A stretch of 63,489 bases of DNA. Origin: a virus. Made by a program: the position numbers and the translations under genes. Below are positions 8,555 through 59,806 of this stretch, piece by piece; position 1 is the stretch's first letter; every line of letters begins with the position of its first letter. The DNA lies in IMG/VR virus record IMGVR_UViG_3300050029_000088, positions 1 to 63,489 of that record; one strand, given 5' to 3'. The notes below the pieces were generated by a model. The model saw nothing but the letters and a program-made list of their open reading frames with translations. It was not told where the DNA came from and made no database searches.

Positions 8555-8885
8555 GTGTCAGATTGGCTAGTTCAAGAATCTTGAGGGCACGCGATGTCTT
8601 GAGAGTCAGGTAGGGAAGAAGAAGCGGGATAGTGGTGCGGCAAGCAATACCGCCGTTGATACTCCACGCCCAAACTATGCTTCCTGACGATGAGCGCGTC
8701 TTGCACTCGCGCAGAGAGCCTCCGAGCACTCGTTGAAGCTTGCGAAGTGGAATCGGGCTCGTCTGCTGAGCCGAAACGGAAACCTGAACTCGACGTTTTG
8801 TGATGCTGACCGTAAAGCACCCCTCCCCGTCTAGGAACCCGGCGCACCATGCAAGATCAACTTTAGACCGGCGATAAAGTCTCAT
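8448..8885 (-). CDS. LAGLIDADG homing endonuclease
   Basis: 145 residues. The first LAGLIDADG helix is LAWCAGFLDGEGCF near residues 11-24, with following strands FTVSITKRRVQVSVSAQQTS. One motif, so it probably acts as a dimer that cuts an intronless or gene-boundary site. Its AT content and codon use differ from neighbours, suggesting recent arrival. It overlaps an upstream 39-codon frame and the downstream gene remnant. Confidence 0.85.
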   Translation of the reverse strand: MRLYRRSKVDLAWCAGFLDGEGCFTVSITKRRVQVSVSAQQTSPIPLRKLQRVLGGSLRECKTRSSSGSIVWAWSINGGIACRTTIPLLLPYLTLKTSRALKILELANLTHERGRKGKPSGYTKTETAARNRLLVELVGRSQPLE

Positions 8886-34270: not shown

Positions 34271-34345
34271 TGTTGCCTCTGAGTGTTCGGTACTGTCCCT
34301 TGTTGACTCTAGGCCGGAATACCTCCTTTGTCTCGGGGTCACAAG

Positions 34346-34425
34346 TGGAGACGGGCGGACTCGAACCGCCGTCCGGCGCAGTCCCGCGTGCGGGCTTTCT
34401 GGCCGTCGATACCTGTCTCGTCCCC
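34346..34425 (-). ncRNA. tRNA-sized tmRNA-like RNA (mini-tmRNA)
   Basis: On the minus strand the RNA begins GGGGACG and ends CGUCUCCA, a 7-bp acceptor with a G3-U pair as in tmRNA/tRNA-Ala. Positions 11-23 (CAGGUAUCGACGG) align base for base with the tmRNA 5' domain of E. coli ssrA (C11, G13-G14, UCGACGG). The T-arm is GGCGG-UUCGAGU-CCGCC. Between them are only about 30 nt (a GGCCAG/CUGcGCC stem capped by CCCG-CACG-CGGG) in place of the usual ~300-nt message/pseudoknot body. CCA is not encoded. Transcription should begin at G1. Confidence 0.65.
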
Positions 34426-34431
34426 GTGGGT

Positions 34432-34437
34432 AGTCTA
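34432..34437 (-). promoter_or_regulatory. Class II promoter for the mini-tmRNA, TAGACT
   Basis: TAGACT on the minus strand, 6 nt (ACCCAC) before the GGGG 5' end at 34425. Confidence 0.65.
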
Positions 34438-34450
34438 GCGCGGGCTAGCC

Positions 34451-34530
34451 GTCCGAGCCGCCGGGACTCCAACCCGGCGCAGACACGCACCTGCCCGCAA
34501 GCACGCGCTGCTCTGTCCGTTGACCCGGAC
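34451..34530 (-). ncRNA. Degenerate tRNA-like structure
   Basis: GTCCGGG/CTCGGAC could form an acceptor, TCAACGGACAGAGCA resembles a D-arm, and CCGGG-TTGGAGT-CCCGG resembles a T-arm with C56 changed to G. No convincing anticodon arm. Probably the 3' domain of the neighbouring giant RNA or a decayed tRNA. Confidence 0.3.
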
Positions 34531-34538
34531 GACCAATC

Positions 34539-34624
34539 CTCCCGCGCGACCGGCCCGACGAGGCGAGAGCGGCCATCGGCCGTATGCAGCCCCGCTACTG
34601 AGCGGGCGTTCGGTCACGCGGAAA
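34539..34624. repeat. RNA module copy 1
   Basis: Plus-strand CTCCCGCGCGACCGGCCCG, a variable hairpin, then CGCTACTGAG, GGGCG, CGGTCACGCGGAAA. The outer parts form a GCGACCG/CGGTC-type helix. Shares 18 of 19 leading bases with copy 2. Confidence 0.65.
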
Positions 34625-34696
34625 CTCCCGAGCGACCGGCCCGTGAGCACTGCCCTTGTGCGGGCTCGCTACTGTGGGCGCTCGGTCGCACGGAAA
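34625..34696. repeat. RNA module copy 2
   Basis: CTCCCGAGCGACCGGCCCG, a different hairpin, then CGCTACTGTG, GGGCG, CGGTCGCACGGAAA. Conserved ends with changed interiors indicate a repeated RNA domain. Confidence 0.65.
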
Positions 34697-36155
34697 ACGT
34701 GGGTCGCGTCGAGGGGAGGGACGGAGCCTTGAGCGGCTCCGGCAGCCGTTAGTCTGCGAAGGGGGCGCGGCGTGTACCTCAACGATCCGGGCATAGCCCA
34801 GGCAGTCGTTGGCCCAACCCTCCTAGAACACGCCAAGTTCGTCTTCTCGGCGCGACCGTGCTCAAGATGTATCCCCCGGTGGGGCGCTTGGTCGACTGCG
34901 ATCAGGCGTCTTACGTCGAGCCTACCGGGGGACGGGGCGCGGCGCTCACCCCGGCTCGCGGCGACCAACCGCAAGGAGTACCCGAGGGAGCGCCGAACTC
35001 ACCCGCCTCACGGCCACAACCTCTTACGGAGGGGCCGCGTCTACGGCGGGCGAAGAAGAACAGGAGCCCGTAACACTCAGAGAGGGATACGTGATGGCGG
35101 AACCGACTCGGTTGCGGAACGTCTGACGACGCACGCAAGCGGCCAGCACGCCCTTCGGCATGGCCCTTCATGTAGTGCGCAGGGTGGCGGCGAGCTTTCT
35201 CCGGCGTCCCGGTTCGTGACGCTCGCAGGCAGCCTGCTTGGGCTCCTGATTCGGGGACGGCGGAGGGGGCGGCATCGTTCCAACGGCTTGCCCTCTCTTA
35301 CCTCACGACTAGACCGTCCATACAGCCGGGCGTTGAGCTTTCTTCCCCGGCCTAAACTTGGTGGAAGCTCGGCTTGAAGCAGAGCACGTACTCTAAGAAG
35401 CACCGCGACCGAAGTCCGGTTTGTGAGCAGCCGAAGCCGAAGCCCCTTTGCCTGAGTTGCGTGCCCGGCAAGAACGCAGGGGATCGAACCCGCCGAGCGG
35501 ACGGTTTCTGCCCCGCCACCCTGTAGCCCGAAAGTCTCTGCTTCAAGCCGAGATTTTTCGAGACGCTCGATGAAGCGGACGGTCGCGCCGTCGCCGTCGC
35601 CTACCCTCCCCGGATCGTTGCAACTCCCCGGATACTCTCGGCTCAAGCTCGGACGTGTTACCGCTTCACTCGCCTTACCGTTCACTCTCCACGCACCTTC
35701 ATTCAGGGATCGATCGGTTGTCCGCGCGAGCTTCGCGCTCGTTCTCCGAGTCGTGGTCGTTAGCCGTCAGGGTGGTTTCGCAGAGCTACTTGCGACGGTG
35801 CCTCACGAGCGGACGGCACCGTGGCAAAAATCACGGGACATCAAGCGCACCCTGACTGGGAGCCAGAGCACGAATACCGGCGGGGCCGAGAAGCACCGTC
35901 CGCTTGCGAAGGGCGACAAGCCAAACCCGCACACGTCACGCGACGACGGCGCTCGAATGGGAAGTCTCCAATCTCCCCCACGAAGAACCAAGCCGCCGCG
36001 CGGCCCGCGCAAGCGCGAGCACCGTCGGAACGGTCGCTCTCTCCGAGAGAGAGGGAAGAACCGCCCGGAACCCGAGTGTCCGACGCCTGGCGGTGGCGGC
36101 GAGGGGAGGGGAGAGGGAGAGAGGCCCGACTCGACAACCCCTTGCTTGCACTCTT

Positions 36156-36408: not shown

Positions 36409-37445
36409 CACCAATCCTCCCCTCGTCTAAGTAGAGCCCCGGCGTAGGCGTACGCCTGGACGACCTGCAAGAATGAATCGTACAGGAACTCGGGCACGAG
36501 AGCGGCCCCCACGAGCATCATCCTCCACCCGCGCTCGCGCACGGTCACAGCCCGCTCGACCATGAAGATGCCTGAGACTCCGATCCAGAGAGGGTGCAGG
36601 TGCATCCCGACGATGGCCCCGTACACGAGCGAGGCGAAGTAGCCGACGGTCACGAGGATGCCTGCGAGCGCGAGCGCCTGTCGTCCCCAGTACGGTGCGG
36701 TTAGCCGGTTGAGTCCGTACTGACGAAGGTTCTCGAACGCGCCGCGCTTCCATCGGAGCCGCTGCCGGGCGAGGTCGCGCCACGTCGGCATGACCTCGGT
36801 CGTCAGGACGCAGCCCTTCGGGCTCAAGACGTGGTGGCCGAGCGTGCGCAGGGCGAAGGTCATCTCGTTGTCCTCGGTCAAGACCGTCGTGTCGTAGACG
36901 AGCCCGCGAGCGCCCGGCAGCCGCGTCCCGCGCTCGTGTGCGACCTCCTGCAAGGCCGAGACGCAGAAAGCGGTCGCGGTGCCCGTGAGCACGAGGCAGC
37001 GGCCCTTGAGCCGCGCCACGTCGCGGGCGTAGCGGGCGTACTCGTTGCGCTGGCACATGCCGAGGAATCCCGCGCCGGGCTGCCCTCGGAAGTTGCCTCC
37101 GACGGCGGAGTACCCGTGGCCGAGGTAGTCGAGCGCCGTCTTCACGAAGCTCGGCGCGAGGATCGAATCGGCATCGACCACGAGCACGACATCGAATGGC
37201 TCTAGCTGCCCGAGGCCCACGTCGAGCGCCTGATTCAGTGCGCCAGCCTTCTTGTCCCGATTGCCGACCGTGCGGATGAGGCCCACGTCGCCACGAGATA
37301 GCACGATCTGTTCTGTCTCGTCCGTGCAGTTGTCCGAGACAACGAATGTCTCATCCGGCGGGCGTGCCTGAGCCGCGAGGGCGTCGAGGCACGCGCCGAT
37401 CCCGGCTTCTTCGTTGTGCGCCGGGATGAGGGCGACGACCCTCAA
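36408..37445 (-). CDS. Membrane-bound family 2 glycosyltransferase
   Basis: 345 residues; the TTG start overlaps the upstream stop (TTGA). GT-A domain: VVALIPAHNEEAGIGACLDA, VSDNCTDET, VVDADS (DxD), TEDNEM and QRLRWKRGAFENL (QxxRW), the processive GT2 signature. Three or four C-terminal membrane helices follow (ALALAGILVTVGYFASLVYG and others). Resembles hyaluronan/poly-GlcNAc synthase-like enzymes. It could modify the host surface to exclude other phages. Confidence 0.82.
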   Translation of the reverse strand: MRVVALIPAHNEEAGIGACLDALAAQARPPDETFVVSDNCTDETEQIVLSRGDVGLIRTVGNRDKKAGALNQALDVGLGQLEPFDVVLVVDADSILAPSFVKTALDYLGHGYSAVGGNFRGQPGAGFLGMCQRNEYARYARDVARLKGRCLVLTGTATAFCVSALQEVAHERGTRLPGARGLVYDTTVLTEDNEMTFALRTLGHHVLSPKGCVLTTEVMPTWRDLARQRLRWKRGAFENLRQYGLNRLTAPYWGRQALALAGILVTVGYFASLVYGAIVGMHLHPLWIGVSGIFMVERAVTVRERGWRMMLVGAALVPEFLYDSFLQVVQAYAYAGALLRRGEDW

Positions 37446-57111: not shown

Positions 57112-57527
57112 ACACGACCAACGAGATAAGCCCGGCGGAGCTTGCCGCCGACCTGCTCACCCGCTGGGGGCTGCCTCCGGTGCGAGTAGTCGTCGGCCCG
57201 GCGACGGACAAGCTACAGCAGGCGGGCGTCATCTCGTGCATGGCGGCGGGCCTTCCTGTAGTAGAGGAGTACGTGCCGATCCAGTGGGCTCGGGTACAGA
57301 TGCGATGCCTCGCCGGAACGCTCGCGCAAGCGGATAACATCTCGCAGGCCGTCCAACGGGACATTCATGCGAAGGTCAGGAAGTTCGTCTACATGGCGTC
57401 GACCGACTCGTGGTATCTGCTTCATCTCTGCAAGATCACCGCTGGGCCGTCGATGCACTTCGACTCGCCCGAGACGTGGGAGACGCTCGTCTTCGCGGAG
57501 CTAATGCTCTCGAACGAGCGACTCTAG
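57108..57527 (+). CDS. Tail terminator / minor capsid-type protein
   Basis: 139 residues. LAADLLTRWGLPPVRVVVGP then strands and AQADNISQAVQRDIHAKVRK, the pattern of tail terminators that cap the tail tube. Ends 1 nt before the tRNA-Gln on the other strand. Confidence 0.65.
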   Translation: MNTTNEISPAELAADLLTRWGLPPVRVVVGPATDKLQQAGVISCMAAGLPVVEEYVPIQWARVQMRCLAGTLAQADNISQAVQRDIHAKVRKFVYMASTDSWYLLHLCKITAGPSMHFDSPETWETLVFAELMLSNERL

Positions 57528-57598
57528 CTCCGGGTCAGGGGATCGAACCCTGCCCTCCGCGTCCAGAGCGCGGCGTCCTACCGATAGACCAACCCGGA
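57528..57598 (-). tRNA. tRNA-Gln (CUG)
   Basis: 71 nt on the minus strand. Acceptor TCCGGGT/ACCCGGA, D-arm GGTCTATCGGTAGGAC, anticodon stem CCGCG/CGCGG with loop CTCTGGA (CUG, codon CAG), T-arm CAGGG-TTCGATC-CCCTG. CCA not encoded. Confidence 0.92.
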
Positions 57599-57603
57599 CG
57601 TGC

Positions 57604-57612
57604 TACAGTCTA
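57604..57612. promoter_or_regulatory. Overlapping divergent class II promoters
   Basis: TACAGT (57604-57609) faces right, 6 nt before the tRNA-like RNA at 57616. TAGACT (57612-57607, minus) faces left, 8 nt before the tRNA-Gln 5' end. The two boxes share three bases, so only one polymerase can use the site at a time. Confidence 0.7.
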
Positions 57613-57615
57613 CTC

Positions 57616-57688
57616 GACGGTCACGTAGCTCAGATAGGTAGAGCGCCGGGGCACCGGAGGTCGCGGGTTCGAGTCCCGCCGGGGCGTC
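57616..57688 (+). ncRNA. tRNA-like RNA lacking a normal anticodon loop
   Basis: The D-arm (GCTCAGATAGGTAGAGC) and T-arm (GCGGG-TTCGAGT-CCCGC) are perfect, but the anticodon arm is CCGG-GGCA-CCGG, a 4-bp stem with a 4-nt loop, about five bases too short. The ends GACGGTC and GGGCGTC pair imperfectly. A promoter places +1 at the first base. Either a decayed tRNA or a functional tRNA mimic. Confidence 0.62.
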
Positions 57689-57740
57689 ACGTTGGGGCCA
57701 AGCGGCTCGGGCACATGACCCTCATGGCCGGGTAGCCTGA

Positions 57741-57762
57741 GAGCCGGGGCAGCGCCCGGCTC
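57741..57762. terminator. Terminator hairpin
   Basis: GAGCCGGG-GCAGCG-CCCGGCTC between the tRNA-like gene and the minus-strand cassette. Confidence 0.6.
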
Positions 57763-57791
57763 CCCTTCTCATCTTCACTGTTTGGGCCTTC

Positions 57792-57808
57792 TTCACCGTG
57801 ACGGTGAA
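57792..57808. promoter_or_regulatory. Palindromic site, possible operator
   Basis: TTCACCG-TGA-CGGTGAA, 7-bp arms, in the 190-nt stretch between the tRNA pair and 57881. Nothing else recognisable there. Confidence 0.35.
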
Positions 57809-57880
57809 TATGCACGTTCGCGCACATACGGCGTTCGCTCGGCCCGTGGCCCTGCAATCTGCGTGATCGTGCGTCGTGAT

Positions 57881-58087
57881 CTAGGTAGAACGCGACGGCG
57901 GACGGCCTAGATGCCACGCTAGCGCGAGTGCCCAGCCGACGATCCCGATGCGAGCGGCGAGCGGCCAGCGGCGGCTAGCGGCCCACGCGGCGTGTGAGAC
58001 GCGAGGCATACGCTCGTCCAACACGGACAGGGCTTCCCACGCGCCGAGCGCGATGGCGGTGCTCGCCCATACGTCCCCTGTCGTCAT
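57881..58087 (-). CDS. Small membrane-associated protein (68 aa)
   Basis: MTTGDVWASTAIALGAWEAL and WPLAARIGIVGWALALAWHL are two hydrophobic segments with basic residues between. Downstream of the GT-D gene in a minus-strand cassette. Function unknown. Confidence 0.55.
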   Translation of the reverse strand: MTTGDVWASTAIALGAWEALSVLDERMPRVSHAAWAASRRWPLAARIGIVGWALALAWHLGRPPSRST

Positions 58088-58096
58088 GGGAGGAGT

Positions 58097-58831
58097 CTAT
58101 CGGTCGGCAGAAAGCAGGTCGGCGTAGGCCCATGCAAGAGTGCCCCGGTCAACCTGGCCCGAGCGCGTCGGCTTCCAGAACAGGGGATCGAGCGCGGAGC
58201 CGAGGTCAATCACCGTCATGCTTGGGTCGCGCTCGATCAGTTCCCCGGCGACGTACTTCGCCGCGTGCGCGGCAGAGAGGAGCACGACCTCGTAGGCCGA
58301 GAGGAAGCGCACGAGCGAGTCCTGCTCGACGCGGGAGTCCTGCCATTCCTGCCCGAGCGGCACCGGAACCCAGTCGGCCCGCATCATCCGAGCGCCGTCC
58401 TTGAGCGGGACGGGCGCGACGTACGCCTTGCGCCGGTCGTCCCGCGCGACCGCCGTGTAGAAGCGTCTCAGATCGGCGGAGAGCCGGTCGTGCTCAACGG
58501 CGTGCGCCGAGAGGAAGGGACGGTGGCCGATCACCTTGAGGAGTTCCTGCCACTCCGGCTCTAGCCCCTCGGGAAGCTCCCCGAAGAAGCACTGCTCGGG
58601 CGAGTCCGCGAGCTTGACGAGCGCCGACAGGGTGAGGGCTCCCGTCTCGGGGCGAAGGTAGAGCCCGTTGGCGTCCGGCGCGTCCCCGCGCCCATAGGCC
58701 GTTACGCCGTAGATGTTGCAGACCACGCCGTCCCCGATCTTGACGTAGGAGAAGGGGGTACGGGATACGAGATGGGCGCGGAGGATCGCGGCGGACTCGT
58801 CCGGGCCGGGCGTGCCGGTGCCGCGCTTCAT
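58097..58831 (-). CDS. GT-D fold (DUF1792-like) glycosyltransferase-type protein
   Basis: About 244 residues from the ATG at 58831. ILRAHLVSRTPFSYVKIGDG resembles the RFGDGE signature of the GT-D fold, though the final Glu is replaced by Val here. Later DRRKAYVAPVPLKDGARMMR and SMTVIDLGSALDPLFW fit. Possibly another sugar-modifying enzyme. An upstream ATG at 58954 overlaps the divergent gene and is less likely. Confidence 0.6.
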   Translation of the reverse strand: MKRGTGTPGPDESAAILRAHLVSRTPFSYVKIGDGVVCNIYGVTAYGRGDAPDANGLYLRPETGALTLSALVKLADSPEQCFFGELPEGLEPEWQELLKVIGHRPFLSAHAVEHDRLSADLRRFYTAVARDDRRKAYVAPVPLKDGARMMRADWVPVPLGQEWQDSRVEQDSLVRFLSAYEVVLLSAAHAAKYVAGELIERDPSMTVIDLGSALDPLFWKPTRSGQVDRGTLAWAYADLLSADR

Positions 58832-58862
58832 CGGGGCACCGGGACAGAAGGCCGTTTCGTCG

Positions 58863-58868
58863 TATACT
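58863..58868 (+). promoter_or_regulatory. Class II promoter, TATACT
   Basis: TATACT 7 nt before the GTG at 58876. Confidence 0.55.
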
Positions 58869-58875
58869 CCTGCAT

Positions 58876-59055
58876 GTGACCACCCGAGAAGAAGCCCGCG
58901 ACGATATGGCATGGGCGATTTATGCCGAGGAGCAAGAAGCCCGAAAACAGGCACGTCCGGTTGAGAGACAGTGGCCGGGTGATGATGTTCTCCGCCATGC
59001 TATTGAGGACGCCCATCGCGGCGACCAAGCTCGGGAGGACGACACCACGACATAG
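58876..59055 (+). CDS. Small charged helical protein (59 aa)
   Basis: Leaderless GTG. TTREEARDDMAWAIYAEEQE and a DDVLRHAIEDAHRGD stretch, highly charged helix. Its 3' end overlaps the LAGLIDADG gene tail to tail. Confidence 0.5.
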   Translation: MTTREEARDDMAWAIYAEEQEARKQARPVERQWPGDDVLRHAIEDAHRGDQAREDDTTT

Positions 59056-59356
59056 CGGTTTCAGCCTGTCTGCGCTTGGGCTGCCCTACGTGGGGAAGGA
59101 TCAGGCGGAGGACTCGCCACGCATCCGGGCCAGTGATGGCGAGCCGGTGCAGGTTTTTTCGTTCGTGCTTAACTCTCTGTTTAGGTACGCCGACCAAGCG
59201 AGCGAAGCGATCAAGAGGACGCCGATCCTTTTGGGGCACCGTGACTCTCAGGTAGTACCGCATCGTTCCGTCTCCCTTATTGCGCTGACGTATCGTGGTT
59301 GCAGACCCCTCCGCCTCAAAGAACCCAGCGAGCCACCCGAGGTCGGCCTCTTTCAT
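59000..59356 (-). CDS. LAGLIDADG homing endonuclease
   Basis: 118 residues from the ATG overlapping the HTH gene stop (ATGA). GWLAGFFEAEGSATTIRQRN is the single LAGLIDADG motif, with a following YYLRVTVPQKDRRPLDRFAR segment typical of the fold. Probably dimeric. Confidence 0.82.
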   Translation of the reverse strand: MKEADLGWLAGFFEAEGSATTIRQRNKGDGTMRYYLRVTVPQKDRRPLDRFARLVGVPKQRVKHERKNLHRLAITGPDAWRVLRLILPHVGQPKRRQAETAMSWCRPPELGRRDGRPQ

Positions 59357-59523
59357 CGCTTCACCGGGCCGGGGCCGCGCATCTCGACGCCTGCCAGCCG
59401 GAGGAGGCGGATCACCTTGCCACGGCTCCAACCCGTGAGAGAGGAGATGCCCCGCGTCGAGAAGCCGCGCCGGTAGAGCATGGCGGCGTGCTCTATGTCC
59501 GTGCGCCTGACGACGTGGGGCAT
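59353..59523 (-). CDS. Small HTH protein (56 aa)
   Basis: Resolvase-type helix-turn-helix: HAAMLYRRGFSTRGISSLTG, then WSRGKVIRLLRLAGVEMRG. Paired with the homing endonuclease, it may regulate it or extend its DNA recognition. Confidence 0.68.
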   Translation of the reverse strand: MPHVVRRTDIEHAAMLYRRGFSTRGISSLTGWSRGKVIRLLRLAGVEMRGPGPVKR

Positions 59524-59566
59524 GAGTGAATGGTACTACATAGCAGACGGGCGGCGCGGGGCGCGG

Positions 59567-59572
59567 TATCTT
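59567..59572 (+). promoter_or_regulatory. Class II promoter, TATCTT
   Basis: TATCTT 7 nt before the ATG at 59580; restarts the tail operon after the minus-strand cassette. Confidence 0.5.
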
Positions 59573-59579
59573 ACTGGGC

Positions 59580-59804
59580 ATGGGACAGGTATACGACCTC
59601 TACACCGCTGCGGTTGACGCAGTGGACGCCTACTCCGACGCTTGTGGTACGGCTCAGGCCGGGTACACGGACGACACGGAGACGATGGCGCTGTACGGGC
59701 TCGGGGTCGTGTCAGCCGACTTCGCGCAGTTCGCTCTCACGGGTGAGCTTGGCGCGAGGGCCGCGAACCGCATCCTGGCCGACGAGGGCATCGACAGCTT
59801 CTAG
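59580..59804 (+). CDS. Small helical protein (74 aa)
   Basis: YDLYTAAVDAVDAYSDACGT and a second helical half. Directly before the tail tube gene; similar in style to the small helical proteins at 60373 and 60838. Possibly a minor virion protein. Confidence 0.58.
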   Translation: MGQVYDLYTAAVDAVDAYSDACGTAQAGYTDDTETMALYGLGVVSADFAQFALTGELGARAANRILADEGIDSF

Positions 59805-59806
59805 TC

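Follow-up and report, generated by a model that had tools for sequence, protein, structure and literature searches.

A possible tRNA-body mimic without an anticodon, encoded beside tRNA-Gln in a phage genome

The phage DNA studied here carries an intact tRNA-Gln gene and, facing away from it on the other strand, an element with the D and T arms of a tRNA and no anticodon loop. Is the latter the remnant of a tRNA gene in decay, or an RNA that the phage maintains in a form that cannot decode? The window, by which we mean the whole stretch of DNA analysed, is a 63,489-base IMG/VR virus record that is classed as linear and is possibly a fragment. Its features, together with those of a bacterial family discussed below, are collected in Table 1.

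The plus-strand element is recognised by the Rfam tRNA model (RF00005; 40.4 bits, 57619-57687, E 4.3e-5 in the window) with a score above the gathering score of 29. Its arms are as given in the preliminary description, namely perfect D and T arms with CCGG-GGCA-CCGG in the place of the anticodon arm, and this was confirmed in the sequence and in the Rfam alignment. The replacement has 12 nt and a 4-nt loop, as compared with 17 nt, a 7-nt loop and a 5-bp stem in an ordinary tRNA. Two hallmarks of a tRNA are thus lacking: a readable anticodon on a 7-nt loop and 5-bp stem, and a 7-bp acceptor stem with discriminator and CCA. CCA is not encoded after the element, as is also the case for the intact tRNAs of this phage. 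ARAGORN made no call for the element in the window, as expected for a gene without an anticodon.

Table 1. Features of the locus and of related or compared RNA genes. Positions are those of the window unless a locus is named.
Feature	Position	Strand	Evidence
Anticodon-less tRNA-shaped RNA with extended terminal stem	57616..57688	+	Rfam, fold, G002 homologue with 12-bp stem
Anticodon-arm replacement CCGG-GGCA-CCGG, 12 nt (4 bp, tetraloop)	57646..57657	+	Sequence, Rfam alignment; same arm in G002
D arm GCTC-AGATAGGTA-GAGC, fully paired	57628..57644	+	Rfam alignment
T arm GCGGG-TTCGAGT-CCCGC, fully paired	57663..57679	+	Rfam alignment
G+C-rich hairpin AGCCGGG-gcagcg-CCCGGCT, possible end of plus transcript, no T run	57742..57761	+	Sequence, fold
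tRNA-Gln(CUG), intact	57527..57598	-	ARAGORN (anticodon CTG), Rfam 56.2 bits
-10 hexamer TAGACT of tRNA-Gln (very likely), 8 nt before 5' end	57607..57612	-	Over-representation, placement
Putative -10 hexamer TACAGT of plus element, 6 nt before 57616	57604..57609	+	Sequence; plausible only
Mini-tmRNA, 83 nt	34343-34425	-	Rfam 57.7 bits
Slipin-linked anticodon-less tRNA genes	L162:1291-1360, L163:4997-5065, L174:2547-2616, L190:4014-4082, L213:2294-2363, about 30 more genome loci		

In the canonical 7-bp acceptor register, the element has two mismatches, G1.G72 and A5.G68. Its lowest-energy fold, calculated from 57616, has a longer terminal stem in which GACG (57616-57619) pairs with CGUC (57685-57688) in addition to inner pairs, flawed by one A.G mismatch and one bulge. 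Pair probabilities in this fold are 0.97-0.99 for the short arm, the T arm and the outer stem, and 0.53 for the D arm. The folding energy is no better than that of shuffles of the same GC-rich composition (z -0.6), so the case for the element rests on homology and not on energy. The hairpin that may end the transcript was not called by terminator prediction. These properties are compatible with a decaying pseudogene whose ancestor lost 5 nt of the anticodon arm and which is now drifting, the acceptor mismatches being further damage and the unremarkable folding energy its mark; the body also most resembles a gene of the tRNA-Gly(GCC) type, with an intact example in Miltoncostaea that is near to it, and many short-arm phage tRNAs are located in large tRNA arrays. 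We assign this explanation a real but minority probability, given that, of the three copies described below, the one in the window is the weakest, and that three relatives have none.

The evidence that speaks against decay comes from a related phage. Four records (L014-L017, in genomes G001-G004) share the structural genes of the window, and a DNA search of these relatives with 57520-57770 gave one strong match, in G002 (36946-37011, minus strand, 82% identity, E 3e-12). The homologue occupies 36933-37009 on the minus strand (82% over 68 nt), scores 28.4 bits against RF00005, just below the gathering score, and reads GCGGCGGGCGGG-TA-GCTC-AAGAGGTA-GAGC-CCGA-GGCA-TCGG-AGGTT-GCGGG-TTCGAGG-CCCGC-TCCGCGCCGCCGC. 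Its arm, CCGA-GGCA-UCGG, again consists of 4 bp and GGCA, and the inner G-C pair of the window has become A-U, a compensatory change. The terminal stem of 12 bp is interrupted by one bulge, and at -43.7 kcal/mol the RNA folds better than shuffles (z -3.0). A comparison of anticodon-arm length in relatives, as proposed in the preliminary description, thus found the identical short length in G002, the only relative with a copy, and the pattern it had set against a mimic, an intact tRNA in relatives with independent random damage, was not seen.

The number of pairs that survive between the two copies also exceeds the expectation for random substitution. In a structure-based alignment, 24/24 pairs are formed in G002 and 21/24 in the window, and four are changed on both sides. 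Simulated substitution in the extended register, where the register of the outer stem was our own choice, gave P(kept) 0.0005 and P(double) 0.003. The corresponding values were 0.0008 and 0.016 for the fixed canonical cloverleaf, and 0.0098 and 0.085 in the strictest version, restricted to acceptor and arm pairs. The shuffles of a pair-counting covariation tool were not significant (63/500), a test that has no power with two sequences.

These two copies are the clear members of the family (n=2), and a third likely member is found in another phage (L259; IMGVR 3300047585_000093), where a scan with a pattern demanding the arm revealed a tRNA-shaped copy with the arm of the window and a different T arm. 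The match of the arm follows from the design of the pattern, and it is the pairing of the terminal stem, 10 bp with no mismatch (GUCCUGCCCG/CGGGCAGGGC), that constitutes independent evidence. The candidate copy sits within a 271-codon ORF, and tblastn of the predicted proteins of the window against L259 gave no matches.

The genomic surroundings of the element differ among the relatives. In the window, a variable cassette (57528-59806) with minus-strand ORFs and the tRNA pair lies between two conserved structural genes; one of the minus-strand ORFs has a weak LAGLIDADG match (59000-59581). The two flanking genes are only 45 nt apart in L014, and in L015-L017 the gap is filled by unrelated ORFs; no tRNA was found at the orthologous position in any of the four. 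Searches with the neighbouring genes for further relatives with the cassette found none. A covariance model built from the window and G002 copies found, in five phages, only these two copies, the other matches being ordinary tRNAs of at most 49 bits, and the element is thus absent from the three other relatives by this search. The same two-sequence model, in a run without a positive control, found nothing at E 1e-10 in 396 Actinomycetota genomes.

Since G001-G004 encode tyrosine integrases, and such phages often use tRNA or tmRNA genes, we considered that the element could be an attachment site (attP) containing part of a host tRNA gene. We find this very improbable and rejected it following an integrase search: in G002 the integrase and the homologue are separated by more than 40 kb, the plus-strand element comprises the two halves of a tRNA and is located among the structural genes, and the window record, which may be partial, has no integrase.

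Transcription of the tRNA pair was the subject of a further claim, that the two genes have overlapping divergent promoters. The hexamer TAGACT occurs 22 times in the window as against 10.7 expected, a count reached in 0/100 shuffles. The 5' ends of tRNA-Met, tRNA-Gln and the mini-tmRNA are each preceded by it at a distance of 6-8 nt (3/3, chance around 1e-9), and ATG or GTG follows 6-8 nt downstream at 10/22 sites compared to a background of 8.5%. From this placement before RNA genes and start codons, TAGACT is very likely the -10 element of this phage, with transcription starting some 7 nt further on, in the manner of leaderless genes. Examples before start codons are spread across the window (23160, 24500, 28618, 29488, 29754, 55257 and 58094), the hexamer also precedes the homologous gene in L014 and L017, and many transcripts in this phage group appear to be leaderless. 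On the plus strand, TACAGT differs from this consensus and is a plausible -10 of the element; 57616 is the first base of the extended stem. Bases 57607-57609 are indeed common to both hexamers. The overlap thus stands, with a well-supported minus-strand -10 and one on the plus strand that is plausible only. No -35 element was found, and a sigma-70 scan gave no promoter-like site. We infer that both promoters are active, in which case a short, nearly leaderless RNA would be transcribed from a promoter overlapping that of tRNA-Gln.

The element had further been described as one of several non-decoding tRNA-shaped RNAs of this phage. One of these, the mini-tmRNA, is real according to Rfam. It retains both ends of the tmRNA tRNA-like domain, and the mRNA-like domain is missing and replaced by about 24 nt; ARAGORN called 34345-34740 here, with a tag peptide, probably in error. 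The tmRNAs of G002 and G003 are full-length (about 328 nt). The other, a degenerate element at 34451, had no match in Rfam at E values up to 0.05 and was therefore dropped from the argument for mimicry.

In G002, a distance of about 50 nt separates the full-length tmRNA from the homologue, which follows it on the same strand. This arrangement would suit a structure for processing or stability, in which the tRNA shape defines where an adjacent transcript ends, e.g. for RNase P trimming of tmRNA 3' ends (cf. mascRNA/MALAT1), and has no role in trans. In the window, however, the element comes first behind its own putative promoter with no RNA gene before it, and the terminal stem runs beyond the usual RNase P site, and we hold this explanation to be improbable.

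Several known RNAs combine tRNA-like features with the lack of a decoding function. The tRNA-like domain of tmRNA (RF00023) likewise has an elbow and an acceptor region without an anticodon, and phage copies exist, one of them adjoining the G002 homologue. However, the plus-strand element has neither the CCA-ready acceptor stem nor the mRNA-like domain of tmRNA, and RF00023 gave no match to it. The genes for bacterial Y RNAs lie near Ro60, and these RNAs have a differently arranged tRNA-like domain. One of them, YrlA (RF02553), is a non-decoding tRNA-shaped RNA with a long closing stem. Identification of the element as a Y RNA was rejected, as RF02553 matches the T arm only (16.1 bits vs 69); a search of six phage records, each of which may be partial, revealed no TROVE protein. 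For the tRNA-like domain of YrlA, competitive inhibition of an anticodon nuclease has been proposed (PMC7790460). The pseudo-tRNA tRNA-Other of Bacillus cereus, likened here by description only, is a non-decoding tRNA-like RNA linked to mobile DNA, with a reported cellular role and a location beside a genomic island (PMC3399842). The small tRNA-like mascRNA and menRNA (RF01684) have a reduced anticodon arm, but are animal nuclear RNAs cut from a longer transcript, and the element scores 16.1 bits against RF01684, below the threshold.

How unusual is a shortened anticodon arm? A survey with a pattern for tRNA D and T arms separated by 2-11 nt too few returned shortened arms in 105 viral and 94 bacterial stretches. 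A stem of 4 bp or more was present in 47/82 viral and 56/66 bacterial cases, as against 9.5 and 10.5 in shuffled sequences. An anticodon arm that is short but paired is thus no rarity, and the element in the window is one among many shapes. Two viral stretches may be mentioned as observations. In L086 (1177-1260, minus strand), a short-arm tRNA-shaped RNA with a long paired stem and a 5-bp arm immediately precedes a likely ribosome-binding site and ATG; it was not counted as a member, as it is near an apparent prophage end by a bacterial gene (judged by eye). In L123, a single phage carries short-arm tRNA-like copies at 8714 and 9102, about 390 nt from each other, one with the stem TTAT-tcat-ATAA and the other with a broken stem.

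In 37/66 of the bacterial cases, a slipin (Band_7) gene follows downstream in the same orientation, at a distance that is nearly always about 390-660 nt, and rtcB is also present in 18 of these. The genes resemble the phage element in that the anticodon arm of a tRNA is replaced by an arm of 4-5 bp with a loop of 3-6 nt; at the loci given in Table 1, the stem has 5 bp and the loop just 4-5 nt. However, they have an ordinary 7-bp acceptor, often with encoded CCA, and a fixed gene neighbourhood. Many also have a G3.U70 pair, which is the alanine identity pair, and rtcB or rtcA is often nearby. In 20 slipin-linked RNAs, all five pairs of the short arm are changed on both sides and yet 100% paired (0/500 shuffles), strongly indicating that selection can act on tRNA genes without an anticodon. 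Neither slipin nor rtcB was found near the element in the window or at any viral short-arm locus; the slipin family was accordingly rejected as the home of the phage element, which belongs to a different family. Our literature search found no paper on anticodon-less phage tRNAs or on slipin-linked ones.

Taken together, the unusual form that the copies have in common, the pair-preserving change and the putative promoter argue for a maintained RNA rather than private decay. The proposal that the element is a mimic and not a product of decay is thereby upheld in part, on the side that denies decay: simple private decay appears unlikely, judging from the short arm, compensatory change and longer stem in G002 and the 10-bp stem in L259. 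By mimicry of tRNA, the element may act on a host factor. We give roughly even chances to the element being a real non-coding RNA of the phage, a non-decoding mimic of the tRNA body that would act through its elbow. As the ends are paired past the acceptor position and CCA is lacking, the RNA is probably neither matured nor aminoacylated like a tRNA. The elbow could then occupy a tRNA-binding protein of the host or the phage, the likeliest being an enzyme that cleaves, modifies or degrades tRNA, to which the RNA would offer no anticodon to cut or read. The most attractive candidate is an anticodon nuclease or another tRNA-processing enzyme (Hughes et al.). The pairing of the element with tRNA-Gln here and with tmRNA in G002 would suit a function connected with translation, or with the defence of tRNA, during infection.

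A more specific and rather doubtful version is that these elements form a phage family of anticodon-less decoys with an extended terminal stem. Such decoys would bind host defence enzymes that target tRNA, e.g. anticodon nucleases, by the elbow, would resist cutting for want of an anticodon loop, and the linked phage tRNA, here tRNA-Gln, would replace the tRNA that the host destroys. Gene finders rely on the anticodon and can skip such genes, and anticodon-less tRNA-shaped RNAs may therefore be common and unannotated. If the phage copies are decoys, they would provide a direct test of whether tRNA mimics shield phages from tRNA-cutting defences.
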